Positions 2,426-60,034 of a DNA stretch of 64,000 nucleotides are shown in pieces. Position 1 is the first letter of the stretch. The number at the start of each line of letters is the position of its first letter. The position numbers were made by a program, and so were the translations under genes. The notes beneath the pieces were generated by a model. That model made no database searches, was not told where the DNA came from, and was given only the letters and a program-made list of their open reading frames with translations. The stretch is from Polytrichum commune (taxonomy: Eukaryota > Streptophyta > Polytrichopsida > Polytrichales > Polytrichaceae). The stretch lies in NCBI GenBank assembly GCA_950295325.1, contig OX485807.1, positions 21,113,666-21,177,665 of the forward strand. Direction: 5' to 3'.

Positions 2426-5202
2426 CCATGATTGGATACGAAGCGGAGTTTGTTTGTTCGTAAGTAATTAAGAGAGCCGTGAATTTCACCCCATCTAGTC
2501 ACACTCCAAGTGCCGCCATGATGATGGCCATGCTTTTGAGGGCCCGTGGGAAGAAGCCAAAAGAGTGCGGGCGGTCATGGGGCCAATAAGGGGCCGGCCG
2601 AAGCTCATTGGCTCGGCCCCGGCCGGTGACTCATCACTGCCCCTTCCTCAGATTCAGGGGGAACTAAAATGCCACGAGATAAGTTCTTAATAAAATCCAT
2701 TAATGCTCTTGGCTCCTTCTCGTTTAATGTTGTCAGGTTGGGGGGGGGGGGGGGGGCATCATCCATATGGGCCACTCCACACACGAGACTGAGAGCCCGT
2801 GACCATGGCACTTCAAGCACTCTCCTTGGTGGAAAAGGCGGAGCCGGTCCACGTTCGCTACTTCGCACTACGCTTGAGGGACCAACGGAGTATGTGAGTG
2901 CAAGACGGATGTAAATGTCGAGGTCACCTTCAACCCTCAGCCTTAGACGGTGTAACCCGCTGCTGACTGGTTTACATGGACATTGCTCCTATCCAAATTA
3001 GCACCCTTTATGTTTCCATTTTGAAGGTGGATTGGTGCATACTATTTCAATATGGTATTCTCGTCGAGTGAATCTCCAAGGAGTAGGTGCCCTAGGTTTT
3101 CAAGTTAATGTTCCCCTAAATCCTAATGTCAAGGTTAAGTGTTCTTAGAGGAAAACCATTCCCATGTCTACTATCTAGGGGAGTTATTCCAAACTCTTTC
3201 ATGGTTTGAATGACTTGTAATTATCCTTATTACATTCAATATTTCAAGAATGTCTCACTAAGAGAGTTATGGATTCCAAGTATACTCCTTCGCTAATGTA
3301 AGTTTATTCACTTAGAGAATATTCAAGTACAAGAGTTCCTCATTCATGCATTAATTTCTCAATGTAACATCAATCTCTTTGTGTCAAAGTGTTTGAACAA
3401 TATTCCATGTATGTTCTAATCTTCCCGTACATTCTATATCTCTTACGTACTTGTCCAAAGATTCCGTCTTGATAGTGGTGAGTCCTTAGTTTTAAGCTTA
3501 GTTAGATGATACTTGATGAACTCGTATCGCCGATTCCAACTTGTCTTGTCACTTTGAATCATTCGTATCTCTTGAGGAATTCAAGTGTTAGAGATTTCCA
3601 ATCTCCCTTTTTGACTAAAGTTTCCGGGTCTTCAAAGGTTATGTGAGAACTTAAATCTTCTAAGGTTTGTGAAAACCCTTAGTCTTCCGATGTTCTTCAA
3701 TCTTTCACCTTCAAAGGTTTTATGAAAACCTTGAACCTTCTAAGGTTCGTGAGAATCCTTAATCTTCTTGTCTTCAACTCGTTTAGCCTTCGAAATCCTC
3801 TTCAAGTAGTTTCTTCAATTTTCTTCGTCTTCGAGTCTTCTCGGATCTCGGTGAAATCCTTTATCTTCTTGAAGTCCAAGCTTCATGCTCTTGAAAAGTC
3901 TTGCGGCAATCATGCACTCCCGAAATGCTTCGCGGTGCTCACGTGAATTTGGTGACTGAAAATGAGCTCCTATAGGTCTCCTTTGTGCCTCCTTATATGG
4001 GTTCTAATATCTACCAATTAATTGATATGGCGGTTAGGCCTTATTCCCCTAATGCCATATGTATGAATCGGCTATTTTCAGCCCTGAATGTAGCTACAGT
4101 CTAATTTTGGTACATGAGGTTCTATTTTTAGTAATGATCACATGCTCTAATTGGATGTACCTGTGGCATGCATATGGTGTAATCCTTTTCTTTCCTAGAT
4201 GTGCCTAGGGGAATTCGGTTACATCCGCGTCCTCCGTCCATCAAAAATGCATATATTCATTCATGGTAGTTGAAGTGGTTTGTGTTCATCCAAGGGAAAT
4301 ATCATCCCTTGGGCATGTCCTTTCACCTACTCTTCCAAAAGACAACAAAGTGTTCACTCGTTCCTAATCCTAGTTCACTAATATGGCCGCACATGTTCCC
4401 ACTTGGGTTCATGATTTCGTTCCCAACTACCCCGTTCCCTACGGCTCGAGGCCCACTCCCGGCTCCATGTCGCCTTCCACGTGGCGCCTTCCTGTTGGTC
4501 AGCTCCCCTTACTAATCCCCGGTGCCGGCTCACCGTCCCTTCAGCTCCCGCCCGGGCCCGCAGTTCTACATTAAAGTGTGCTCGGTGGCGGTGTACATTA
4601 AAGTCTACATGGTATCGAATGGATTGTGTTTTACGGTCACTTGGATTGTTTTCAAAAACCACCTCTCGAAGGTAAGCCTGACACAAAACTAGGAGACTAT
4701 GGTACTATGAACACTCACAACTGTTGGTTTATTCTGTTTTATCATGTGTGAGGATCCGCTTAAATAGAAATTCATTGAAATAGCATTTGGTTGAGGGACT
4801 GGTCATATATGACTTCACGCTACCCTTGAGGGTCCATGACCACATTACATGATTTTGGAGGTGCTTTGGGACGGCCTTTCAACACTTTCTTTTGGGCTTT
4901 CGGAATTAATTGGTCACAACTCTTGGCTCGTGTGTGAAGTGGCCCTAAGATGCAAAATTGTCATTCTAGATGATGATGATCATCATCATCATCATCAAGT
5001 TTAAGGTATGTGGGTGTTGCATAATATTAGTCAAATGCATCTTTCACATCCATGCCCATAACGAATAGTTAGCTTGACACTATCGCCCATGGTTGTAAAA
5101 ATGATGTTGGATTTCAAACCCCCCCCCTCCCTATGGCCCACCCACCTACACAAGGCAATTGAGCAATGTTATGTGTTCAATTTGTTTTTCATGTTCTCCA
5201 AC

Positions 5203-6342: not shown

Positions 6343-7053
6343 GGGGGTGGACTCTTCATACCATGTACGAACTAACACGAGTGTAAGAAGATGTATTATT
6401 TTAGGCATTAGCATACAAAGTACACATAAGGGAGAGGTATCGTTTTTCTCTAGTATGTGCATCTAAAAAGGCTATTAAAATTTGTGAAGTAAAGGTAGAT
6501 GTACAAAAGGGGGCCCTGAGGGTTAAAGAAGATACTAACAATAGGTGTGTTAGTTTCATCCACTACCCACTTTCATCCATTGTTGTCATATGGTTAAGGT
6601 CCTCAATGGTTACCATGTATGTTCTTGTCAATGATTGCATTTGGGTTATAGTTTTTTCAAACTAGTGGCTCTTGGAGCTCTCATGTGCTTCCTTTAATTT
6701 TGCTCTTTGGATTGTGGTTAAGTTATTGTGCTATTGTCTTAGTTTGTTTGATACAATCATCGGGTTACATGCTTTGAATAAAAAAACATTCAATCACTTT
6801 CTCATTGAAAAGTGAAAGTAGATTTTATATCTAATAAAGGGCTATTTAATTAATGGTTTATAGTTTGTTTATGTAGTGGAGGCAATTATCACATTAAATT
6901 GAAAAGCTTAGTATAAATACATGAATCCATTTTCTAGCATATTGTTAGTACGTATACATCTTTTATGCCCTATAAACTTCTTGTATCGAGGGGCTTTGAT
7001 TTCATAGTGACCCCCACATGTGATTTAGGTTTCCGATGAGGAGTCCACACCCC
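6343..7053 (+). repeat. About 705-bp TIR element, copy 1
   Basis: It begins GGGGGTGGACTCTTCATA and ends GAGTCCACACCCC, an inverted pair. The interior matches the reverse complement of 32,300-33,003, for example AAAGGTAGATGTACAAAAGG here against CCTTTTGTACATCTACCTTT there, and the (G)AAAGTGAAAGT block. No ORF is shared, so it looks like a non-autonomous DNA transposon or an old repeat with inverted ends. Confidence 0.6.
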
Positions 7054-7113
7054 GGGTTATGAGCTTGCAGTCACGATCAAGGTGAAGCATTCCTCGTTCA
7101 TGCCAACCTTAAA

Positions 7114-7116
<3 letters not shown>

Positions 7117-7192
<76 letters not shown>
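7117..7192. repeat. (CT)n microsatellite flanking the retroelement
   Basis: An uninterrupted CT dinucleotide run of about 76 bases sits directly against the start of the left direct repeat at 7,191. The right direct repeat also ends in CTCTCTC (to 13,474), so the element appears to lie inside a CT tract. Confidence 0.9.
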
Positions 7193-7194
<2 letters not shown>

Positions 7195-8276
7195 CTCTTG
7201 TTTAAAGCCATATATTTTGTTTAAGCTTGTATTCCTTTACTTTATACCTATCATGCACACATAAATAAAAAAGTAGTTACTGTATGGACTAAGTGTTCAT
7301 AAGTATAGATGAATGATACAAGGTGACTAGGGTTAAGGATGTAGAACACATCCCTAACACGTGGTAAAATTAGGGTTGTACAGAACTTACCTTGGGTAAG
7401 ATCTCCAATATAAACCCGTAAACCCTAAAAGAGGCTCTTTTTTACCATTCGCACAAGGGCTTGGTGAGGTAACTTGGAGCACACTTGCTGGGATACTAGA
7501 TACGTGTGCTAAGTGAAGTAGAGGATACTTAGGCTATTCACAAAGGAGAGCATTCTACTTGTGGTGATACAATCATGGCTAAAGAACAGGTTTGAACACC
7601 CATTTGACATTTTGTAATGAGTGTTACTACTAGCAATACTAATATGCATGTAATGTAAGTTTGATGTGTGTGACATGGATAACAACTGGGTCCTGCTGTT
7701 ATTTACCTCGTGTACGTAACTAATCCTCAATTATTTGTTGGTTGGTTGCATGGGCACAGGTGAGGCAGGCCCTTCACACTTACAATACTACGAAGTATTG
7801 TGAATATGACATTTTATGTATTCCTTTTGGTTGATACTACTAGGCATATCTCCTGGTATGTTTTCCATATATATAATAGTTAGGGTACATCCTTGTTGGA
7901 GCAATGCATGAAGAGAGGTAATTAGATCTACAAAGGTATGATGGGGTCAGCCACAATTTGTTTTTGAGTACTTAGGAACTATGTATGAGTACTGAAACCC
8001 TAAGTATGATACAAATACTTATGAAAGTACAGTATATCGCATTATTACATGTTTGTATTGTTTACATACAATTAGACATGGGCGTTTACAAAGAGCATTG
8101 AACATACTTAGCCTTAAAACGATATGATGAGAAGGTTTGATTTGAGGTAATGAGGGTTATGAAAAAGTTCCCACCCACCCACCCTTGCATTGCAATGAAG
8201 AAGACATTGAAGGATTAGGCCTCTGAAAAGAGGAAGTTCAAGCTTTGCAAAAAGCGTTGAAAAGTCAACTCTCTCT
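7191..8276 (+). repeat. Left direct repeat (pseudo-LTR) of the retroelement
   Basis: This copy begins CTTGCTCTTGTTTAAAGCC and ends GAAAAGTCAACTCTCTCT. It contains an antisense open frame of 73 codons (7,509-7,730, non-ATG start) that is preserved in the right copy and partly in a diverged third copy. A nested hairpin lies at 7,989-8,030. Confidence 0.85.
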
Positions 8277-8410
8277 GGATTATCCTTTAGTGGTGTGGAA
8301 ACCACTACCTAGTCCTTCATATTCTTCTGAAGTTGCTTTACATGTTCTGTGGCTGACTAACGTCGCAAAACCATAACAAGGGACCGGCATGGAACAACGA
8401 GCTCGTAGCA

Positions 8411-9943
8411 ATGGGGTACGGCCCACCACTACCGGCACCCATACCTGCGGTGCAAACCACTATATCTGCCATAGATTTACCCGAACTGCACAGATTTGTA
8501 CAAGACAGTGACAATGCTGCACTTACAAACGGCGAAGAAGAAGGTGGGCATACACCACTTCTCCTGGATTCACTTGACCTAGCATTGTGGACGTCACTAT
8601 TTATTATTGCAACCACAGATCCAACCAAAACCTTGGCCAACATCAAGTCTGCACAGACCAGACTAGGTGATTTACTGATACAGGATGAAATCGAAGCTAC
8701 AAAATCAATCGGGTTATGCTCGATGATTGAGGAAACCCTCAAGCTGGCCAATAAAGATGCGCTGGAAGCAAACTCGTCGCACACGGCAGTGGTAGCAACC
8801 AGCGATGGCAACGGAGCTAACAACACCGTTCACCCATTACTGGCAAAACTGAAGATCTCCACCATGGAGATGGCTGCTCTAGAGGATTTCACCGAGGACA
8901 TCAATTCTTCGTAGGCGGAGAAAGATAAGCAGACCATGGTCAATACCAGGGGTCCCTTAGTACCCGTCAAACCGCCACGCTGTGTGGAGCTCCTCGTCGC
9001 CGACCACCAACATCGAATGTGGGCAATCGGGAACACGAACCTGATCGCACCAATTTCGATCGTCATGTGGAAAACCTGGGCTGGCCTCTCGGATTCGGAG
9101 ATAGAACAATGCAAACAGCAGGCACTTAATAACATTGGCGTGCTACGTGCTCCAGTGGACTTGCTGCCGGCCTTCTCTCTTAACATGTTCGAGCATTCTA
9201 AATGCACGACTACAGAAGTGAAGCTGCACACTAAACAGGATCTACCCACGGGCTATAACAGAAAAGAGTCTCACCTAGCGGAACTCTGGAATGTTCAAAG
9301 ACCCTATATGAGATGCTTGTGCAATCCTAGGGCGATCAGTGGGTGCAAAGGATCCATAGTCTGGTTTGACCATGCCATTTGGACAATGGTTAACAAGCTA
9401 GACATGTTCTTCCCGAATCAACCAACCAATAACACCAGGTTCGCTGCTTTCATGCTGTGGCTCAGCAGCGCAGCAAAAATCGCAATAAAGGCTGCAGTAG
9501 TGTTCCACATTGGAAGAGAACACATGGTGACAGCGGCGACACAACTCGCTGATAATTCTAACCAGAAACTACTACCTGACCTAAGCGATGCTCCACTGGC
9601 TATCAAAATCGAACGACTCCTGAGAGGGCCAAAATTCTCTCTGCTGCACCCAGGATCACCGAGCCCTGCGCCATCGCCGTTCAAGAAACAGCGACTCAAC
9701 CTCAATACCTCACCCTCACAGCAGGGTGCACAGGGAGGGCGCGGTAGATCTCCAAACGGTCGCGGGTTTACTCCCCGAGGTGGGAGGTTTAGGGGTCGCG
9801 GCAGTGGCCGCAGCTTCCATCCGCGTGACAGCTCGCAGGGGACACCACCCGGCCAAGCCAGGGCAGCAACCACCGAAAATACACAGGGAGCAGGTGGCCA
9901 GTCCCCGCTCCGAGGACGTGTTCTATTGTGGGATGGGATTTAA
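8411..9943 (+). CDS. gag-like nucleic-acid-binding ORF with an internal TAG
   Basis: An ATG at 8,411 opens a frame of 167 codons that stops at a single TAG (8,912-8,914). The same frame then stays open to a TAA at 9,941-9,943, adding 343 codons, of which the last 335 begin at an ATG at 8,936. The total length if read through is about 510 residues. The second part has a structured middle with many W, F and M residues (GSIVWFDHAIWTMVNKLDMF and its neighbourhood). Its tail is basic and rich in G, R, S and P with RGG/RGR clusters (near 9,720-9,850), typical of RNA-binding retroelement proteins. No CCHC zinc knuckle is seen. It precedes the RT ORF and probably makes the particle or ribonucleoprotein component. 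The lone stop may be a mutation, an end of a separate ORF, or a recoding site. Function is inferred from position and composition only. Confidence 0.6.
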
Positions 9944-9998
9944 ATGGAATGTGAGCTTACTTAAGCAAGTTTTACACTACTCTTAGGATGCATCCTAA

Positions 9999-12176
9999 CA
10001 GCTAGTTGGCTATAATTTTGAACTCACAGAGACAGGTCGCACATTACGACATAATGCACTTGGACGCCGTTATGTGTCACGTGACAAGAATACGGATCGA
10101 ACTGGGATAGTACACGTAAACTACTGCAGTAGGGCATTAGAGTGGGTGAATATGAAACAATTATTCTCAGAGGTGTTCACTCAGTTGTCAATACCACATA
10201 TTATACCTTTTTTGCTTAACATTATGTTCGCTTGGAATTTACTGCCTAATGTCTCCAGAGTTTGTTATAGACCTGCTTTAGTATTCAAAGATTTCAATGT
10301 GGGTGCACACATGACGGGCTCATACGAATGTATGTGTAACAGTTCTAAGAGACTGATACAGTTTCTAGACCCAGATACCATAGATGATACCAATGGTGAT
10401 CCAAGGATGCATGTACGCACCATGGATACAACCATAATACATCACCATGGATTAAGAGAAGCAGTGACCTTAGGATTGAATCACATACCTTTACGAAATA
10501 CTAATATACGTGAGACTGTCCAAGTGGTAATGGATACGTTTGAACAGGTTTGCCGACTTTTGAAAGTAGACGAACTTATTGACGTGGACATGGCATCTAA
10601 AATCGTTCGAGCAAGGTCAAGAGACAAACTGTTATCAGCCATAAAAGAAAATCTTTTTGGCTTCAGATATTCAAAACCATACCTCTTCTCTGAAAAGGCA
10701 GTGGAAAATGAATTGTCTTGGCTCATGAAGCATGTATTCATATCGGGACTAGATAAAGCAACTAGTAATGCTTGTTTCATATGCATTACTCACATAAGAA
10801 ATCAAGCCTTGATAAGACTCAACAGTCCTGATTTTGAACCATGCCAACATGACAATGCATGGGACTCTGTAGAGGATGTCACAAACAAGGTAAAGATGGA
10901 ATTGAAATCCCTCTTACCCGAACTACCCATACATGAGGAAGAACTTCCTTATATAATGGCGATATACAAAGTCCACAAAATGAAATATAGGTGGATCTCC
11001 AATGCATTTGGGACCCTATATGTAAATATTGCCACACTCCTTACCATATCAACTATGGCACTACTTGATGAGGTAAAGGAATGGGCTACTCTCACGGTCA
11101 AAGGGTATAGTAATTTCCTTGGTATTGACACGTCAATATATTGGATTATAGACTCAATTACAGATTTTACCTTAAACATTCCTGAAAGTATCAACAACAT
11201 ATATGTTGCTGATATAACAAGATGTTTCGAGTCTATTCCAATTTCGGGCAAAGATACATTATATGACGCTATGGAGTTTATCACTCAAATTGGTATATCC
11301 AATATGAAACGAAAACATCCTAAATCTGAACACCTCCTCTGGGTTAGGATTAACGACAAAGGAGTTACCACTAAAGCACTATGGGCATCTAAATGCCCTA
11401 AGTATGGGGAATGGTTCCCAATACCAATCCCTAAATTCCTACAAATTCACAAATGGTTGACAACTAACTGTTATGTACGATTGGGAGACCAGGTATGGAA
11501 ACAGGTACTCGGTATACCCATGGGTTTTTCATGTTCACCTCTTTGGTGTAACTTATATCTCATGTCATATGAGATTAAGTTTATACAGAGGTTAGCTAGA
11601 CTTGGACAAACAACAATCCTAGCTAAATTTAAGTACGCATTTCGATATATCGATGACTTGTGTTGGATTAACGTGGGTGAGGCTAATATGTTCCTCGATC
11701 CTACACAACCAAGACACAGAGATAATCCATTATGGATCTACCCATTGGATATTATTGAAATCAAGACTGAAGTGTCTCAGTTTTCATTAAACCATCCACA
11801 GTCTGGCATCAAAGCACATTTTATGAATGTGTTAATCACTGTTACAGACGAGGACTCTGGTCTATTCATCATGCAGAAGTACGATAAACGACGTGAGTTA
11901 CCATTCAGTTACTCTCAGTTTATAAAATTCAAGTCGAACAGACCGGTTAAACAGGCTTACAATGTGGTTATTTCCCAAACTGTACCCATACTATACCTAT
12001 CAAGCAACCAGGACGTAGCTTTGCAGGAGATAAGAGCTCTGTTCACAGTGCTATCTGCTAATGGGTTCCGCAGTACCAAACTACAACAAATAGTGATTAA
12101 GTTCCTGACTAACAACCACTTTCCTGCGTTGCGATTTAATAAAGACCATCTTCTGCAACTGCTGCAAGGTATGTAA
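9999..12176 (+). CDS. Reverse transcriptase of an endonuclease-less retroelement
   Basis: The frame is open from 9,999; the first ATG is at 10,152, and the 700-residue numbering used here counts from a GTG at 10,074. RT palm motifs are clear: motif A VADITRCFESIPI with Asp near residue 380, motif B LGIPMGFSCSPLWCNLYL from about residue 479, and motif C FRYIDDLCWIN with the catalytic DD at 527-528. Upstream, DKATSNACFICI and MAIYKVHK with WISNAFG fit the finger region of a lineage of single-ORF RTs that I recall from cnidarian and other invertebrate genomes. The N-terminal part has a CMC pair and HHHGLREAVTLG. Motif B resembles Penelope-like elements more than LTR or non-LTR elements. There is no RNase H, integrase or GIY-YIG domain. 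The frame differs from the gag-like ORF, whose stop lies 55 bases before this frame opens. Confidence 0.85.
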   Translation, partial: QLVGYNFELTETGRTLRHNALGRRYVSRDKNTDRTGIVHVNYCSRALEWVNMKQLFSEVFTQLSIPHIIPFLLNIMFAWNLLPNVSRVCYRPALVFKDFNVGAHMTGSYECMCNSSKRLIQFLDPDTIDDTNGDPRMHVRTMDTTIIHHHGLREAVTLGLNHIPLRNTNIRETVQVVMDTFEQVCRLLKVDELIDVDMASKIVRARSRDKLLSAIKENLFGFRYSKPYLFSEKAVENELSWLMKHVFISGLDKATSNACFICITHIRNQALIRLNSPDFEPCQHDNAWDSVEDVTNKVKMELKSLLPELPIHEEELPYIMAIYKVHKMKYRWISNAFGTLYVNIATLLTISTMALLDEVKEWATLTVKGYSNFLGIDTSIYWIIDSITDFTLNIPESINNIYVADITRCFESIPISGKDTLYDAMEFITQIGISNMKRKHPKSEHLLWVRINDKGVTTKALWASKCPKYGEWFPIPIPKFLQIHKWLTTNCYVRLGDQVWKQVLGIPMGFSCSPLWCNLYLMSYEIKFIQRLARLGQTTILAKFKYAFRYIDDLCWINVGEANMFLDPTQPRHRDNPLWIYPLDIIEIKTEVSQFSLNHPQSGIKAHFMNVLITVTDEDSGLFIMQKYDKRRELPFSYSQFIKFKSNRPVKQAYNVVISQTVPILYLSSNQDVALQEIRALFTVLSANGFRSTKLQQIVIKFLTNNHFPALRFNKDHLLQLLQGM

Positions 12177-12387
12177 CTCTTACTACTATTTACAGTATTG
12201 CATAAAGGGAGTATATGTAATTGGATACCAATGAATGATGTATACAAATCGCATGAGAGTGACAGAGAGAAAAATAAACAGGGTGACTGGTATGCATACC
12301 GTGAGTGGATGCATAACCAGCATCCACTCCTATACACTTATGACCTACTAGGGGTTTGGTGGAGGGTCTCTCTCTCTCTCTCCCTAT
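12177..12387 (+). other. Retroelement 3' internal spacer
   Basis: This stretch lies between the RT stop and the right direct repeat. It ends in a short imperfect CT run (about 12,367-12,383) that mirrors the CT run before the left repeat. No gene is supported. Confidence 0.5.
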
Positions 12388-13474
12388 CTTGCTCTTGTTT
12401 AAAGCCATATATTTTGTTTAAGCTTGTATTCCTTTACTTTATACCTATCATGCACACATAAATAAAAAAGTAGTTACTGTATGGACTAAGTGTTCATAAG
12501 TATAGATGAATGATACAAGGTGACTAGGGTTAAGGATGTAGAACACATCCCTAACACGTGGTAAAATTAGGGTTGTACAGAACTTACCTTGGGTAAGATC
12601 TCCAATATAAACCCGTAAACCCTAAAAGAGGCTCTTTTTTACCATTCGCACAAGGGCTTGGTGAGGTAACTTGGAGCACACTTGCTGGGATACTAGATAC
12701 GTGTGCTAAGTGAAGTAGAGGATACTTAGGCTATTCACAAAGGAGAGCATTCTACTTGTGGTGATACAATCATGGCTAAAGAACAGGTTTGAACACCCAT
12801 TTGACATTTTGTAATGAGTGTTACTACTAGCAATACTAATATGCATGTAATGTAAGTTTGATGTGTGTGACATGGATAACAACTGGGTCCTGCTGTTATT
12901 TACCTCGTGTACGTAACTAATCCTCAATTATTTGTTGGTTGGTTGCATGGGCACAGGTGAGGCAGGCCCTTCACACTTACAATACTACGAAGTATTGTGA
13001 ATATGACATTTTATGTATTCCTTTTGGTTGATACTACTAGGCATATCTCCTGGTATGTTTTCCATATATATAATAGTTAGGGTACATCCTTGTTGGAGCA
13101 ATGCATGAAGAGAGGTAATTAGATCTACAAAGGTATGATGGGGTCAGCCACAATTTGTTTTTGAGTACTTAGGAACTATGTATGAGTACTGAAACCCTAA
13201 GTATGATACAAATACTTATGAAAGTACAGTATATCGCATTATTACATGTTTGTATTGTTTACATACAATTAGACATGGGCGTTTACAAAGAGCATTGAAC
13301 ATACTTAGCCTTAAAACGATATGATGAGAAGGTTTGATTTGAGGTAATGAGGGTTATGAAAAAGTTCCCACCCACCCACCCTTGCATTGCAATGAAGAAG
13401 ACATTGAAGGATTAGGCCTCTGAAAAGAGGAAGTTCAAGCTTTGCAAAAAGCGTTGAAAAGTCAGCTCTCTCTC
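12388..13474 (+). repeat. Right direct repeat (pseudo-LTR) of the retroelement
   Basis: This is an essentially identical copy of 7,191-8,276, followed at once by CTCTCTCATGACATAG. The antisense 73-codon frame is at 12,706-12,927. Confidence 0.85.
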
Positions 13475-13559
13475 ATGACATAGATTTTGATTTTAAAGTC
13501 TTACATTAATCTATCTAGCAATGGCCCTCTTTATAAGTTGAGGACTATAGGCTCAGGTA

Positions 13560-14583
13560 ATTCTAAATCTACATACATGGAAAGAAATTATACTTACCAT
13601 GAATTGGATGTAACAAGGATGTAGATGAATAAAGCAAAATAACCATAGTAACAAACGTGAACCACGTCTCTAATCCATGGTAAAAATAGGGTTCACAAGA
13701 ACTTACCATAGGTATAAACTATAATATAAACCCTTGACCCTAAAAAATGCCTCGATTTTACCATTCACGCAAGTGAAAGGTGTGGCGAGCTTTGTGTATA
13801 CACGTTAGGGTAATAGATACGTGCTAAGAGTAAGAGAAACTAAGGCTCATCGCCAAGAGGAGTATTCTACTTGGAGTAACCCAATCATGGCCAAGGAACA
13901 AATCTGAACACCCATATGTTGTTTTACAATGAGTGTTGTATTTTGAAATACTTTGATGCATTTGAAATGGATTAAGTGTGTGCGACATGGATAACAATTG
14001 GGTCCTCCTGTTATTTACCTCGTGTACGTAACTAATCCTCAATTGTTTGTTGGTTGGTTGCATGGGCACATGTGAGGCATGCCCTTCACACATTCAATAC
14101 AATGATGTATTGTGATTATGACATTCTATGCATATCTATTGGTTGAGGAAACTAGGAACATTTCCCTTGTAAGTACTCCATGCATGTGGTGGATTAAGTA
14201 TGTGTACTTTGAAGTAAAACAAGGAGATAGATGTTCAAACTACAACGTATGGGGCAGGCATAATCAAACATTTGTTGTAGGAAGCCATGTGACAACATAA
14301 ATTCTTAATAAGGTACATTTTCTTGCAAAACATATTAGATTATGAGACAAGATGTATATGTTGTTCAACACACCCATTTAGGCATGATGGCAAATATTAA
14401 GCTCTATTATGCAAAATGTTATTATGATTCCAAATAGAAAGATGCAAAAGAGGTAGAAAGAGTCTTGTGGACATTCCCTCCCACCCACACTTGTATTGCA
14501 AAGAAGAAGAAATTAAAGGATCTAGCCTTTGAAAAGAGGAAGTTCAAACTTTGTAAAACTTTTGAAAAGTCAACCCTCTCTCA
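13560..14583 (+). repeat. Diverged third copy of the retroelement direct repeat
   Basis: It aligns in order with the direct repeats: GTAGATGAAT, GGTAAAA(A/T)TAGGGTT, a TATAAACCC block, the CAATCATGGC(C/T)AA block, ACATGGATAACAA(C/T)TGGGTCCT, GTTATTTACCTCGTGTACGT, TTGGTTGGTTGCATGGGCAC and the terminal GAAAAGAGGAAGTTCAA followed by AGTCAACCCTCTCTC. Divergence is clear, with many substitutions and small indels. The antisense frame is still open (13,824-14,093, 89 codons). It is probably an older copy left by a related element or part of an old tandem arrangement. Confidence 0.7.
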
Positions 14584-14625
14584 AAAACAAAAACAAAAAC
14601 AAAAACAAAACAAACAAAAAATGAA

Positions 14626-15002
14626 GGAGGGAGGGAATTGTTGTCTACTATTGTGCCTCTCATTCATCCAACATACAAACTTGACCCCCCCCCCCGCTCT
14701 TATCTCAAAAGACTTGGACTATGTAGTGGGCGCTCTATTTCATCTTTACTAGTGCCATAATGTAATTTCCATGTGGGATTCAAGCAGGTCCTAGCCAACG
14801 TAAGATTGACATGTGGCAACAACTTAAGGGACAAAATAATTTACACTTTCTCGTAATAGAGAGCCCTCTACAATACTTGGGGTGTTTAAAAGTAATGTTG
14901 ATGTCATATCAACTATAAATAGTTAAAAAGTGCATATTATTTTAGGGTTTTATGTTGACGAATGAGAGGTATCCTCGTGTATGATAATGCCCTCTCTCTC
15001 CC
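14626..15002. repeat. GA-MITE family, copy 2
   Basis: The left end is GGAGGGAGGGAATTG followed by GTGCCTCTCATTCATCCAAC. The right end is GTTGACGAATGAGAGGTATC followed by CCTCTCTCTCCC. The interior is longer than in other copies and includes a poly-C run near 14,685. Confidence 0.5.
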
Positions 15003-20000: not shown

Positions 20001-21950
20001 CACTAAAGAGAGAGAGAGAGAGATTCTTCAACTTGATCATAGCCACGAGTTCATATGTAAACCCAAGGCATGTTTACAAAATAGACCTATGGGACAATTG
20101 CTATTGCCTCTTGTTGGGGGTGATCCTTATGAGTAACCATGAGTAACCAAAGACGATGGGGGATATTTTTGACCCTATTTTGTCGGTTTGTTGATATGTT
20201 TATTGGTATATGATTTTTGTGTACCATTGTATGTATTTTGAAAGTGGGTGTTATGAGAACATGGTGTATGTACATGTTGTAACATGTGTTGAGTTTGTTT
20301 CCCAGGGCTATTTATTCCTTTGGCTCAACTAATTGAGGATGCATTATGATGTAGGATTAGTTCTTGGGGTTTGGTGCCCATTTGGTTGATTTTGTTGGTT
20401 GCATGGGTGGGAATTATTGGGTCTCAATGGTTTTCCAATTTTTCTTTGTTGAGTATGAGTGAGATGAGATACCAAATGGCTATTAAGTGAATTCATTGCA
20501 TGCATGTATGAATGGGCATTAGGAGTATGAAGTATTGTTCAAATAGGATGGTAATATTGTCCATGTGGATACCTTCTCGGATGCTTGTTGTGAGGATAGT
20601 GAGCGTGACATATCATTTGGAGTTTTGGGTGGTATAGTGAGTGGTTTTCTCTTGGGTGGTGGTGGTGATGAAGATTACAATGTTTGAGTTGAGTTTGGTG
20701 AGACATTGGCATGGTCTTGTGATGCAAATGCAAGAATATAACCATGTAAGAGTTGTATTGTTCATAACAACACTTATAGAATAGAACATTAATTTTTATA
20801 AACATAAAATGGAAGTACGACTTCAAATAAGGTACAAAACTACAAAATACGAACTAAAGGCCACATTTGGAGTTGAATTGTGACAACCATTGGATTTTAA
20901 CACGAGGTGGAATTGGACCCGAGTCTATGATGTTCATTAAGATGCACATATATTCTCATATATTCTCATATATTCTACTACCTATTGTGAGACTCTAATA
21001 CGTTTGGCTTTGGTCTCCCACGTGCTTTGACAATCCCACGTCTCCATGGTAGACTTACCCATCCACTTCATCCGCTTGGTGCAATGTAGGCTCCATGCCA
21101 CGTAAGATTATTCTTTCTCCAACCACATTATAGTTTTGTTCGAGAGCCGGAACTCCTTATCATTGGAATCCTAGTTTGGTGTTCTCCTCTCACCAATAGC
21201 AATTGAGCGTACTTCTATAGAGCGTCCACAATTATGTCTTTTGTGGTATTAAAATACACCAATATGCATTCTTTTATCACATAGTATCATGATTAAGTTG
21301 GGTTCAAGTTTACCTTCAACCATATCTAAAACTATTGTTGTTCCAAAGTAATTGGCTTCTACTACTCCTCTTCCATGCTCTGGCTTTGAAGGTCTCTCTT
21401 AGTGTCACATGATAGTTACAAACAAATAAAGATCCAAAGAAAACAAACTAAAACCATCTGCAAGCATGTTCTTATGTATTGTAGATGGGCAAGTAATAGC
21501 GTTGTGCTTGTGGTTATCATCATATAACATATATTTTTACGATTCCACAAAAACAATGCCCATGAAATTGTGAGGAGAGGGTGAATGGACATAGTGTGCT
21601 AGTGTAAAAGCACCGATTCTTCTTCTTCTTACTATGCCAATGAAATTCAACTACAACCATTTACTCATGTCATGGTGGTTTTGTTGTTGTGTGTACTCTG
21701 TCAATAAAGCTAATTAGGTAGAAACATTTAATTCCATCATTGACCCAATTCCAACATTTGTTTTTGTTCCAAACTATAAAACTCCGTGCTTCAAAATGAT
21801 TCCTAATGATGTTATTCTAAGGACCAAAATCGTAGTTCAAAAAGTGAGAAAGTAAAGCATCTATGCTTAATACTTCACTAAAGTGGATCCATTGTTTTGT
21901 TTTGTTTTGTTTTGTCATTTCTCATTCCTTCCTTTTAAAGATGAAAGGAT
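17009..21950. other. Gene-free stretch of mostly unrecognised repeats
   Basis: No gene is supported. A (TA)n run lies at about 18,137-18,153. Sequence at 18,455-18,680 is related to 36,365-36,590 (the TTGT TGACATCATG block, GTGATTGG, CCTAGGACCACTTC-like and TTCCGGTGAGAGAGGC-like motifs). Short GA tracts lie at 18,445 and 20,010. Open frames such as the His-rich one at 20,539-20,826 are compositional artefacts. Confidence 0.4.
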
Positions 21951-36925: not shown

Positions 36926-37873
36926 GGGCCGCTTTACACCTAGAGCCCGGGCCAATTCCCCTTGAGGCCGATTGCATGAAATTTCAGCCCCTTTTGGGTT
37001 GGAGGCCGTCCTCAACTACACATTATAATAAGATTATAATGGGGGCCAATTTTCCCATATGCAAAGGCCTTAGGGCCAAGAAGCTAGGCCGATTCAATAA
37101 ATCAAGCTTAATCCAACGGATCTAGGATAATCTAGCATAGAGCCATTCATATTTCCACATAATCCAATGGACATGGTTCATTGAAAAAATAATGTTATAA
37201 TAAAGAAACTTTTCTTTAATTGAAATTTGACATTGGCCCCGAGGCCAAGAATTGGCCTTCCATTTTGGGTGCACCCAATTCAACGAGCTCAAGCCGTGTC
37301 ATACAATGCATTTTTTGACTAACAAAATTCATACCACTAAATCAGCCCGGCCTCTAGGTGTAAAGTGGTTGGGACCGATTTTAGCCTTTTGGCCAATCAC
37401 AAGTGAGAAGTTCAAGCCTCTTACACAACGAATTGGCCCGGCCTCTAGGTGTAAAGGGGTTAGGGCAAATTTCAGCCTTTTGACCAATCACAAGTGAGGA
37501 TTTCAAACCTCTTACACAACAAATTGGCCCGGCCTCTAGGTGTAAAGGGGTTAGGGCCGATTTCAGCCTTTTGACCAATCACAAGTGAGGATTTCAAGCC
37601 TCTTACACAACGAATTAGCCCGGCCTCTAGGTGTAAAGGGGTTGGGGCCGATTACAACCTTTTGGCCAATCACAAGTGAGGATTTCAAGCCTCTTACACA
37701 ACGAATTGACCCGGCCTCTAGGTGTAAAGGGGTTGGGACCGATTACAACCTTTTGACCAATCACAAGTGAGGAGTTCAAACCTCTTACAGAACGAATTGG
37801 CCCGGCCTCTAGATGTAAAGGGGTTGGGGCCGATTTCAGCCTTTTGGCCAATCACAAGTGAGTAAAGCGGCCC
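36926..37873. mobile_element. PIF/Harbinger-like MITE with internal tandem array
   Basis: It begins GGGCCGCTTTACACC and ends AGTAAAGCGGCCC, flanked by TTA at 36,923-36,925 and 37,874-37,876. A TTA/TAA duplication and a GGGCCG-type TIR are characteristic of Tourist-like MITEs of the PIF/Harbinger group. The right half holds about six tandem units of some 91 bp (about 37,345-37,873), each with GGCCTCTAGGTGTAAAGGGG and CCAATCACAAGTGAGGA. No transposase is present. A second member lies at 41,248. Confidence 0.8.
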
Positions 37874-56032: not shown

Positions 56033-59000
56033 CTATAGATTCAGAGTACATGAAATATCTTTTGCCTCTTGGTTTATCCACTCGCAAGGTTCACCATGAA
56101 GAGTTCGAATTGCCTTGAAGTGGGTAAAATGTTTCACCAACGAATGCCATAACTTTGAACATTTCCTACCGGAACCCTTAAACCTTTGAAAACGACCTTC
56201 AACCGGTCTACCAACAATATGCAACCATTTCAACTCTACTTCCCCCACAAAATAATCTTGTTCCTCCAAATCGGCACTTTTAGCTATATCTTTTCTTTTG
56301 GAAGTTTCCCCTTCAACATTGCGAAGATACTTTTGAGTAGTCACATTTATAACAACTGCAATTGCAAATGTTGGTTATTGTCTTGTCCAGTCTGTTGCTC
56401 TTACCAACATTACATCCTTCTTCTCGGGGTACGGCGGTATGCAACCTGATTTAGAAACCGCAAACAAATGCTCGCACGGACCCACATCTTCCAACTCATA
56501 AGCCACATATCAAGTTGTAATTTGCCCGCAAATGGGCATTGCAATGAATTTGTGCATGATCAAAGCGACCACTCTGATGTCATCGTCAGGCCACCTTTGT
56601 GCAGCCTCCGTAACAACACACATGCCAGTCAGTTCATGCTCTAAGGGTATGTAGACAGAAACTGGGTTGGTGAAAGTGGCATAATAATCTCCTTGAAATA
56701 ATACTTGCTTCATGCTTTGAAACTCATGGATAAAAAATTGCGTAATTTTTGCTTTCCATGTCCATACATGTCTTCCAACCGCCACATCTAGTTTAATGAC
56801 CACGCAATCTTCTATTCGATATATTTGCCCTTGCAACAATAAGTAGGAGAAAACTTGGATTAATGTACTAAAAAATGACAATAAATGATTGTTGAAGCCA
56901 TAATGCATCCAATACTTTTGTAAGTATAAATTTGTGCCCTCTGATATTCCAGTATCCACGTTTTTTTTGCGATCGACAACGATACCTTTCTCGTGGATAA
57001 GATCCTTGCAAGGACATGATGGCATTACACTACTCAGCTTCCAGATGCTCCGAGCAACATCTTGAGAAGGTACAAATATGACACAAGACTTGTGCCATTG
57101 TTCACAAATTGTTCGAGAATCCATTAATTGGATATGTTCTGTATTGCTTGGAGTTTGGAAATATTCATGGATTGTCACAAGTGCCCTACTGTCAGGAAGC
57201 AAACCATCACGATCCAATTGCATAGTCCTGTGCATTTTCGTACACCAGTGTTGTGAAAAATATTCGCTATATGTCACCTCGTTGTTGATTTGATCGGATC
57301 GAATGTTCACAAAATTTGATACCTCCCTCTCAAATGGGTAGCACCAAAATACGTCGTAACAACCATGCCTTACCACATCATCCAAAATCTCTCCACTCCC
57401 TGTAGAATTAACATTATCAGACTTCAATTTTGTTGTCTTGTATTTTATCAGTACATGGATTGTGATAACATTAAGAATCTGAATCATAATATTTTATGGT
57501 ACTATTGGACTCAGAGCTCACTTAAATTTTTCATAATTGCTCACACATAAAAATAAACAAGGAAAAAACACAATAACCATACTAGAACTTTGAATGCATT
57601 CATGATCTAAGACTACATAAACCTGCCACATGTTTGAGAGGTGACGAATTAAGTCCAGCATTTTCTTCCATTCTGATGTGCCATGCTGTCAAAAGTTGTC
57701 TTGCATTTTCCATTCATTTTGAAGTCCAGCCATATGTTCTACTCTGATTGTAAAAAAGACGTACAATTTTTGTTAAAAGCATCTCTGAGGCTCCCAAAAT
57801 AGAATCTACTCCAATGTTCAAGTGATCAAGAATGTGCGGCAAACACCACATAATCCATATTTGAAACTCCTTTGCCTTATAATATCCTAAAGATGACAAG
57901 TTTCTTGGCCATCTTGCCCTGAGCCCTTGAGGTCGAATATTTTTTACAACTTCCATTGCAGTATCTATGTCATTAACTCTCCCAGTCTGCTCTGCATATT
58001 TTACGATCATCTGAACATATTTCTTAAATATGCACAAAGCTAGTATATGCATAACATCATAAACGAGATCCCTTAGAATATCAAAACCGTAAAGATCATG
58101 TAATCGTCATAAAATAGAATAACCAGAAATTCCGGCCTCACGGCATGTCACGTCCTAATGTCTTCCATCTGGCAGTTGACGCCAATTGGCCAATGTCATT
58201 GCAGTATCTTCCACATTTCGATTGACGAAGACACATCTATGTTATTTTTTGTTATCATAATACTCTACTAAGCCATTGTTTGCATTTGGAATTCCTCGCC
58301 ATCTAGATGCGACTTTATGACGTCTACAACATGAATATCCACCCATTTTTAACCCTCCAATTTTGCATTGAGTTGGGTGATCTCCAATCCAAATTGTGAC
58401 CATTACACGTAATGTAATCAATTCATTCGTGGGGATCAAATGTAGTTTATCGCTAATGGCTTCTGCAAGATATGCATATAACACGGGAAATCCTTTACAA
58501 AAATTGTTTCTATATATTTCACAAGTAAATTCAAAAAACATGTTAATATATTGTAATTTGCGTGTTTGATAAGTTTGTCCAAACTTGAAGGGATAAACAG
58601 TATGGGTATAGACCAATAGGATTAACTTTTCCTGCATTCAAAATAACCAAGTCTACTGCCCAACAATTTTTTTGACTGGTTTTTGCTATCGAAAAATCAT
58701 CCCAATGCAACATAAAAACAAAATTCTGTGGATTTCCCTAAAAATGTCATAAACAAAGTGTCAATTACTTCTGCAAATATATTCCATCTGATATGTATTA
58801 TTCATATGTATATACCGCACGTCCAATATTTATTTTCTTGTCGTTGTATTTGAACTTAAAATATTTGCAACATATTGTGACTTTATCTACAAATCAATAA
58901 AAATCCATTAAAATTTTTGTACCTATTGTATTTGTCTTGAAGCATGAATTCGAGACGAATATTCTATACAAACAAACGAATAGTGTTGCGTCTCAACATC

Positions 59001-60034
59001 CCACGAATGAAGGAGCTCATCGCATTTGGTAGGAAATGCTTAGAAAGCATGTAAATAATGTGGATTGGGACAAATGACAGGTGCTTCCCATTTTCCCTCT
59101 GGATTCCAAAATACTTGAAGTTCGCGAAATTACTTCCATCATAGTCTTCATGGATATTTTCGGGTATCGAAGAAGGATGTTGTCCCTGCAACCATCTTTC
59201 TTTGTTCCTCCACGTATTCAATAATTTAAGACACATTGACATGCTCTTGCATATGCTCGCCAACAAAGGGCCAACCGGCATATATTCAAAAGCTAACATA
59301 TTCTTCCTCATTTTTAAACATACAGGACATTTTTCTGAACAAGTTGAATAGTCGCGTTTGAATTTTGATCTCAATCCTGCTCTGCATACACATCTCGCCA
59401 TATTTGAACCTTCATATATTTCTTCAGAACTTGGCTCCATAACTTGGGGTACATGCGATACTTCTGTTGATCCCGTGCACAATCTGAATCTTTGTGTTTC
59501 CACTAGCCCAAGAGACTTATAATAAACCTGCAATTGTTTCCATGAGGCAGGTGCAACAGCTCCTCCACCTATATCTCCTTGCCATTGTGGGCCAGCAATA
59601 GTAAGCAATCTACCCAAAAACAACTCCAAGTAATCTATCGTCCCATCTTCAAAGACTTTAGGCTCTTGTTGCAACGAGCCAAATAATTGATGTAACATAG
59701 AATCTTGCACCCTTATAGGAATATGTGTTTCATCCCACATTATCTGAAGTTCCACAATACGGCAAGTGATTGCTTCATTTAAGGTCAATGCTTGTGGTGT
59801 AATTGACATAGGTGCAAGATCATTAATAAGACAAGGAATTGTTGATTCGTTAGGTTCAGTTTCTGTATTTTGTGGCTTTGTGGACGCGGGTTCTTGTGTC
59901 GTGTTGCATACAACTTACATATCCAAATGCATATACACTGTGCTCTTGGACCACCACTTCAAACCTCGACAAATATTACAGAAACATTGCGTCACAGGTG
60001 TGAAGCTTGAAGAAGCCTCCTCCCATGTTTGCAT
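56033..60034 (-). CDS. TNP2-like (CACTA-type) transposase, multi-exon and partly decayed
   Basis: On the minus strand a start ATG at 60,034 leads into a Cys-rich piece (CFCNICRGLKWWSKSTVYMH) ending at a GTAAGT donor (59,918). Open blocks follow at 59,809-58,964, 58,637-58,242, 58,052-57,714, 57,487-56,510 and 56,344-56,033. Typical TNP2-type segments are the early C-x-C-x2-C and HL region, a second CVCRAGL Cys cluster, HEDYDGSNFANFKYFG, IWIGDHPTQCKIGGLK with a CCRRHK pair, RWPRNLSSLGYYKAKEFQIW, and DVFWCYPFERE. Exon borders inside are not all resolved; a proposed first intron would be very short, so frameshifts are likely. It would catalyse cut-and-paste transposition. TIRs and target duplication were not found; tandem 70-bp repeats at 60,044-60,183 sit where subterminal repeats of CACTA elements usually lie. 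Confidence 0.65.

Follow-up and report, generated by a model that had tools for sequence, protein, structure and literature searches.

The 64,000-nucleotide stretch of Polytrichum commune DNA analysed here (assembly GCA_950295325.1, contig OX485807.1, positions 21,113,666 to 21,177,665; hereafter the window) contains, on its forward strand, a retroelement that is bounded by two long direct repeats and encodes a gag-like protein and a reverse transcriptase (RT). The 5′ repeat, a long terminal repeat (LTR) or pseudo-LTR at 7191–8276, and the 3′ repeat at 12388–13473 are each 1,086 bp long and, on realignment, differ only at position 8268, in agreement with the initial annotation. The match extends upstream into (TC)n sequence (7170–8276 against 12367–13473; 1,107 bp with 3 mismatches). 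The element opens at its 5′ side with a (CT)n tract (7117–7192), partly target and partly element, and the (TC)n tract that opens the 3′ repeat (12367–12382) is only 16 nt long. Each repeat contains a conserved structured RNA element of 111 nt (7668–7778 and 12865–12975) and ends in CTCTCTCT (8269–8276 and 13466–13473), which is proposed below as the start site of complementary DNA (cDNA) synthesis. A hairpin is located 11 nt 3′ of the first repeat (8288–8307), and a stem-loop a little upstream of the second (12303–12329). At its CT end, the window copy is joined to an older related repeat (13474–14583; about 76–84% identity over the aligned parts), which has its own RNA element at 13980–14090. 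One repeat and the internal region together measure 5.2 kb.

The internal region is mostly filled by two open reading frames (ORFs). ORF1 (8357–9943) has the C-x-C-x7-C-x8-H pattern and the RGG-rich C terminus of the gag-like protein noticed initially; the in-frame stop that divides it into 185 and 342 codons had been overlooked. The frame is open over 526–529 codons in seven close copies elsewhere in the genome (L009–L013, L016 and L017) and is split in L014. ORF2 (9999–12176), which encodes the RT, is intact, with 725 codons from stop to stop, or 674 counted from the ATG at 10152, and has the expected motifs A, B and C at residues 353, 453 and 499. Motifs A and B are 100 residues apart, a distance that resembles the one produced by an insertion in the RTs of telomerase and Penelope elements. 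In Pfam searches up to E 1, seven RT members of an alignment spanning the subfamilies of the element gave no RNase H, integrase, protease, tyrosine recombinase or GIY-YIG domain, and ORF1 gave just one chance match to a domain of unknown function, in one of nine members; the absences noted from the letters alone were thus borne out. Neither ORF has a Pfam domain for the tyrosine recombinase that is the hallmark of DIRS elements, and Pfam detects no LINE-type endonuclease, long repeats being present instead. Both ORFs are under purifying selection, with ratios of nonsynonymous to synonymous substitution of 0.087, 0.118 and 0.068 for the RT (three of six pairs) and 0.037 and 0.071 for ORF1 (two of four pairs), the remaining pairs being saturated at silent sites and therefore giving no ratio.

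The element belongs to a family that is real and recently active. On the chloroplast contig of the host, rbcL, tRNA-Arg(CCG) and an accD-like frame follow one another, a gene order that marks bryophytes. The host genome (408 Mb in 64 contigs, with TTTAGGG telomeres) contains at least 41 DNA and at least 69 protein matches to the RT, at least 14 of the latter spanning 600 or more residues without a stop, and at least 47 matches to the direct repeat; these are lower bounds, and 40 of 40 RT DNA candidates, 66 of 132 RT protein candidates and 40 of 782 repeat candidates were scored. The element is therefore not a product of chance or of local duplication, and the same repeats flank other copies, which disposes of the segmental duplication that the initial annotation had considered. 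The subfamilies, at about 100, 95, 84, 62 and 44% RT identity, have the same plan throughout. Of twenty other copies, picked for long RT matches, fourteen have a repeat pair, which is 99.28–100% identical within the copy and 100% identical in nine (in L018 the matching part covers only 840 bp); the other six (L015, L022 and L025–L028) are truncated, rearranged or diverged. The divergence between repeats of different copies reaches 20%; for the 62% and 44% subfamilies, the conserved block is the most that can be aligned with the window repeat. Because the pairs are nearly identical within a copy and yet differ between copies, both repeats of a new copy appear to stem from one template repeat, which counts against simple end-to-end copying of a linear RNA of the form repeat-internal-repeat. 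The earlier view of a complete, young, plant-borne element is supported; the CT ends and targets, the conserved RNA elements and the solo repeats had escaped the initial annotation. Among the repeat matches listed at 99% identity or more, 18 repeats comprise eight in four full copies and ten solo repeats; in 12 solo repeats studied (these ten and two at 98%), the internal region has no match in any of the 24 flanks. The excess of young solo repeats fits fast recombination and direct insertion of single repeats alike.

The ends of the insertions point to the kind of site that is used. Fifteen full copies and 12 solo repeats were examined. Every one of these 27 insertions opens with (TC)n, and 24 close with a CTCTCT tract; of the other three, L018 has a broken 3′ repeat, and the remaining two, L023 and L024, finish with AGCTCTC variants. 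On the right flank, an additional CT run of at least 5 nt is present in eight of the 27 insertions, as against 219 of 112,882 random host sites (0.19%; P about 4e-16). The left tract exceeds the corresponding tract of the 3′ repeat by 17 nt or more in eight of the 15 full copies, although left tracts by themselves prove little because the element brings (TC)n of its own. Ten of the 27 insertions abut, on one side, a further repeat of this type, with a CT end at the junction (the window copy, L009, L011, L012, L014, L018, L023, L038, L041 and L044); L040 and L048 resemble these by eye only. Insertions thus tend to lie in CT microsatellites, and this placement suggests that the element RNA finds its insertion sites by pairing with them. 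No target-site duplication is seen by eye, and none would be detectable inside a microsatellite. The family is dispersed and not telomeric: only two of the 36 sites behind the 41 best-scored repeats are within 1 Mb of a chromosome end, where 1.2 are expected. The first 2 kb of the large contigs C3, C5 and C6 read N, so that copies at those chromosome ends would escape notice.

RNA structures inside and just after the repeat show compensatory changes across subfamilies. The 111-nt block is 78–100% identical to that of the window in other copies, with a mean column identity of 90% across 16 variants; in the own repeats of the 44% subfamily it escaped plain BLAST, only two short pieces matching there, in conserved order and spacing. 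In 11 sequences from all subfamilies tested (own repeats, except for the older repeat at 13980), 92.2% of the cells pair in the proposed fold (39–46% when the fold is slid along the alignment), six of the nine pairs of the basal helix are changed on both sides, and both the number of cells changed on both sides (30) and the score (0.335 versus 0.168 in shuffled alignments) are beyond all 500 shuffles. A second test, with 16 of the 18 distinct variants (two were omitted by the choice of rows, and four rows, L012, L014, L023 and L028, come from neighbouring solo repeats and not from the element's own), likewise gave values beyond all 500 shuffles (15 cells changed on both sides; score 0.100 versus 0.056). 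Other statistics speak against the RNA element: pairs changed on both sides and further pair types do not exceed the shuffles in the 11-sequence test (210 and 338 of 500), those in the 16-variant test (4 and 10) are reached by 128 and 149 of 500 shuffles, and helices 1 and 2, the latter a supposed pseudoknot, show no compensating change in the 16-variant test. The hairpin is found 11–15 nt after the repeat in all nine copies examined (L018 and others not included), with four differing perfect stems across subfamilies; a stem of at least 6 bp occurs in 103 of 1,000 random host 60-mers. The two RNA elements may help in binding the RT, in processing or in export. Neither is matched by an Rfam family, the microRNA matches being far below the cut-off, and a topology like that of the hepatitis delta virus ribozyme was dropped for the 111-nt element because Rfam found nothing. 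A coding role for the block was also rejected, since inspection by eye shows its frame to be closed in some copies. Seventeen of the 18 variants of the block contain GTGAGG or GTAAGG, which resembles a splice donor, and one has GCGAGG; splicing from the block to the RT ORF is possible.

The RT itself scores far lower against Pfam than the best host RTs. The window RT matches RVT_1 below the threshold (21.2 bits; cut-off 29.6), and the match is weak in all seven RT members (best E 1.6e-4); 150 host RTs score 115–143 bits and the host TERT exon 38.2, a contrast that is biased because these host RTs are the best 150 of 2,620 candidates. With such a score, the nesting in a well-described plant LTR, LINE or DIRS family that would have spoken against the initial annotation was not found. 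NCBIfam gives a weak match to group II RTs (E 0.0016, 17.6 bits), far below its cut-off. In a profile comparison with three RTs, namely the host TERT, one RT of a diversity-generating retroelement and one group II RT, the RT alignment matched the TERT exon that holds motif B over 85 columns (E 1.2e-5, 29% identity). Under other settings, TERT scored 47.4, the highest of 60 shuffles giving 22.3; the diversity-generating RT scored 28.1 (shuffle maximum 23.5) and the group II RT 23.4 (28.5). Judged from these profiles, TERT is apparently the best relative of the three, in the stretch before and at motif B. Telomerase RT is, unlike the element, a non-mobile cellular gene with an RNA-binding domain and its own RNA. 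No relatives were found in the viral contigs, genome contigs or plasmids searched; two degenerate motif B patterns, of the animal and Penelope types, gave nothing useful in viral contigs, the three matches of one of them being short non-RT frames, and a profile search of the PDB gave only two chance matches. Two other ORFs of the window, at 56510–57493 and 58964–59914 on the reverse strand, have no Pfam match and were rejected as relatives. The TERT match and the anatomy of the repeat boundary together lend indirect support to a Penelope-like affinity.

One further copy bears on the mode of synthesis. L015 consists only of the RT part and the 3′ repeat and is 98.8% identical to L017 over 3,499 bp; it is 5′-truncated with a complete 3′ end, and its 5′ side joins host sequence (up to about position 4420) from a gene that we take to resemble an aspartyl- or asparaginyl-tRNA synthetase. 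It is the one clear young truncated copy among the 20, which were selected by long RT matches. The reading that we favour, and hold to be rather probable, is that these are autonomous retroelements with an RT of the Penelope/telomerase branch, which lack their own endonuclease, prime at CT microsatellites and probably start synthesis at the repeat boundary. The ORF1 protein, RNA-binding and gag-like, and the RT would work on an RNA that runs from the long repeat into the first part of the internal region, and the RT would bind near the hairpin just past the repeat. cDNA synthesis would begin at CUCUCUCU of the repeat end, primed by GA-repeat DNA that has a free 3′ end within a CT/GA microsatellite, and would cross the repeat; in full copies it would go on to copy the internal region and then a second repeat. 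Synthesis would stop once the cDNA has reached a (CU)n tract and is able to anneal to the opposite side of the microsatellite. For one repeat to be copied twice, the template would have to be a circular or tandem RNA, or strand transfer would have to occur. An internal start has a counterpart in Anolis, where reverse transcription of a Penelope element starts internally on an RNA spanning the junction of pseudo-LTR and ORF (PMC11167929). Similarly, the Terminons are described as exposing a short target-complementary stretch beside a conserved RNA fold (PMC6431247).

Several results weigh against this reading. Fewer than 5 nt of additional CT are present on the right side of 19 of the 27 insertions, and no orthologous empty site was seen. 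The 3′ junction of L011 has GGAT after the repeat, as in the internal sequence, and this hint of an internal start is weak because the target shares GATCTATGGG, so that only one base is clearly past the repeat. Ordinary recombination can also yield solo repeats, and no pair of internal regions spaced as in a tandem was seen among the 41 RT matches listed. The similarity to TERT is limited to about 85 columns within a single exon, a second TERT exon does not match, and a single-sequence AlphaFold prediction of the RT was discarded (predicted local distance difference test value 34). The comparison covered the three RTs named above, and membership among the Penelope-like elements is putative. 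Hammerhead ribozymes are common, although not universal, in Penelope-like repeats; with E up to 10 for window positions 7000–14700 and E up to 1 for six further copies, Rfam detects neither a hammerhead nor another known ribozyme. Folding of the terminal 62 nt of the repeat is no better than that of shuffled sequences (z −0.1 to −2.1), and a terminal hairpin proposed there was dropped as not significant. On balance, endonuclease-free target priming at CT microsatellites is most likely, with an internal start probably at the repeat boundary; by analogy, the element may work like a Penelope-type element, of which it is a candidate member.

The alternative that survives best is that the element belongs to an endonuclease-deficient Penelope-like clade already described, as from Selaginella, conifers, fungi and rotifers, and is new in its host only; we regard this as unlikely but worth serious consideration. 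Such elements, including Athena, the Terminons and fungal, protist and plant members, have two ORFs, no endonuclease, a length of 4–6 kb and a telomerase-related RT (PMC6431247), and are listed for spike moss and conifers (PMC9033089). The moss element, with two ORFs, no GIY-YIG detected by Pfam and 5.2 kb, agrees with this description. However, the published elements are described as largely confined to chromosome ends, the fungal and protist ones without repeat organisation (PMC3846280), whereas the moss family lies at CT microsatellites inside chromosomes, with the two of 36 sites near ends given above, and its ends are CT and not telomeric repeats. It also differs in having defined long direct repeats and solo repeats, another RNA fold and no hammerhead found. 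Canonical Penelope and Poseidon elements share the pseudo-LTRs, seen here as repeat pairs in the window copy and 14 of the 20 others, but they carry one ORF with GIY-YIG.

A degenerate or unusual LTR retrotransposon, which would make double-stranded cDNA in the LTR manner and enter CT repeats with the help of host recombination or of an integrase acting in trans, seems improbable. Like the plant Gypsy and Copia elements, the moss element has two near-identical long repeats that are homogenised in each cycle, a gag-like ORF and many solo repeats; unlike them, it has no detected RNase H, protease or integrase, its repeats are not TG..CA, one copy is 5′-truncated and its RVT_1 score is far under those of the best host RTs. 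The TGG that follows the repeat in the window's and near subfamilies is absent from the 62% and 44% subfamilies, so that no tRNA primer site is conserved and tRNA priming was rejected.

It is similarly doubtful that the CT tracts are merely mutable ends that arose after otherwise random insertion through broken ends. Microsatellites do expand, and L038 sits in a short repeat, at a point that reads only TCCCTC in other copies; against this stand the CT runs of the right flanks and the recurrent joining at CT ends of other repeats. In addition, the left flank of L048 is a short dispersed repeat that has a (TC)n tail in six of ten other copies studied. The retroelement does not directly follow the tail in these copies, except that a related-looking repeat start follows in L061. 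The short repeat, found in the window at 20018–20110 (−) and 7058–7107 (+) and elsewhere as L055–L064 (155 first-look candidates, of which 40 were scored), is possibly a short interspersed nuclear element that inserts at such targets as well; five of its copies gave no tRNA, and a tie to the RT of the element is only suggestive. Separately, the window has head-to-tail repeats of about 90 bp at 37339–37862 that are 91–92% alike.

Among other mobile elements, the SaTar elements of guayule and rice have microsatellite targets and non-nested multimers in common with the moss family; they are, however, non-autonomous Mu-like DNA transposons and not retroelements (PMC5907723). In the titles and abstract openings that were searched, no CT-microsatellite element of the present kind was found, which is weak evidence of absence. 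A bolder and unlikely extension is that the RT forms a separate deep lineage between Penelope and telomerase and that the 111-nt fold is a new self-processing, circularising RNA, one round from CUCUCUCU giving repeat-internal-repeat with identical repeats and a stop at the first (CU)n giving solo repeats directly; if this were true, insertion sizes would be set by the position of the CU tracts. An endonuclease-less family that operates inside chromosomes and presents an RNA end able to pair with a microsatellite would represent a further answer to the problem of endonuclease-free priming and would connect telomerase-type RTs with microsatellite targeting. With its identical repeat pairs, many solo repeats and covarying RNAs, the moss family would make the formation of pseudo-LTRs in Penelope-type elements testable in a plant.

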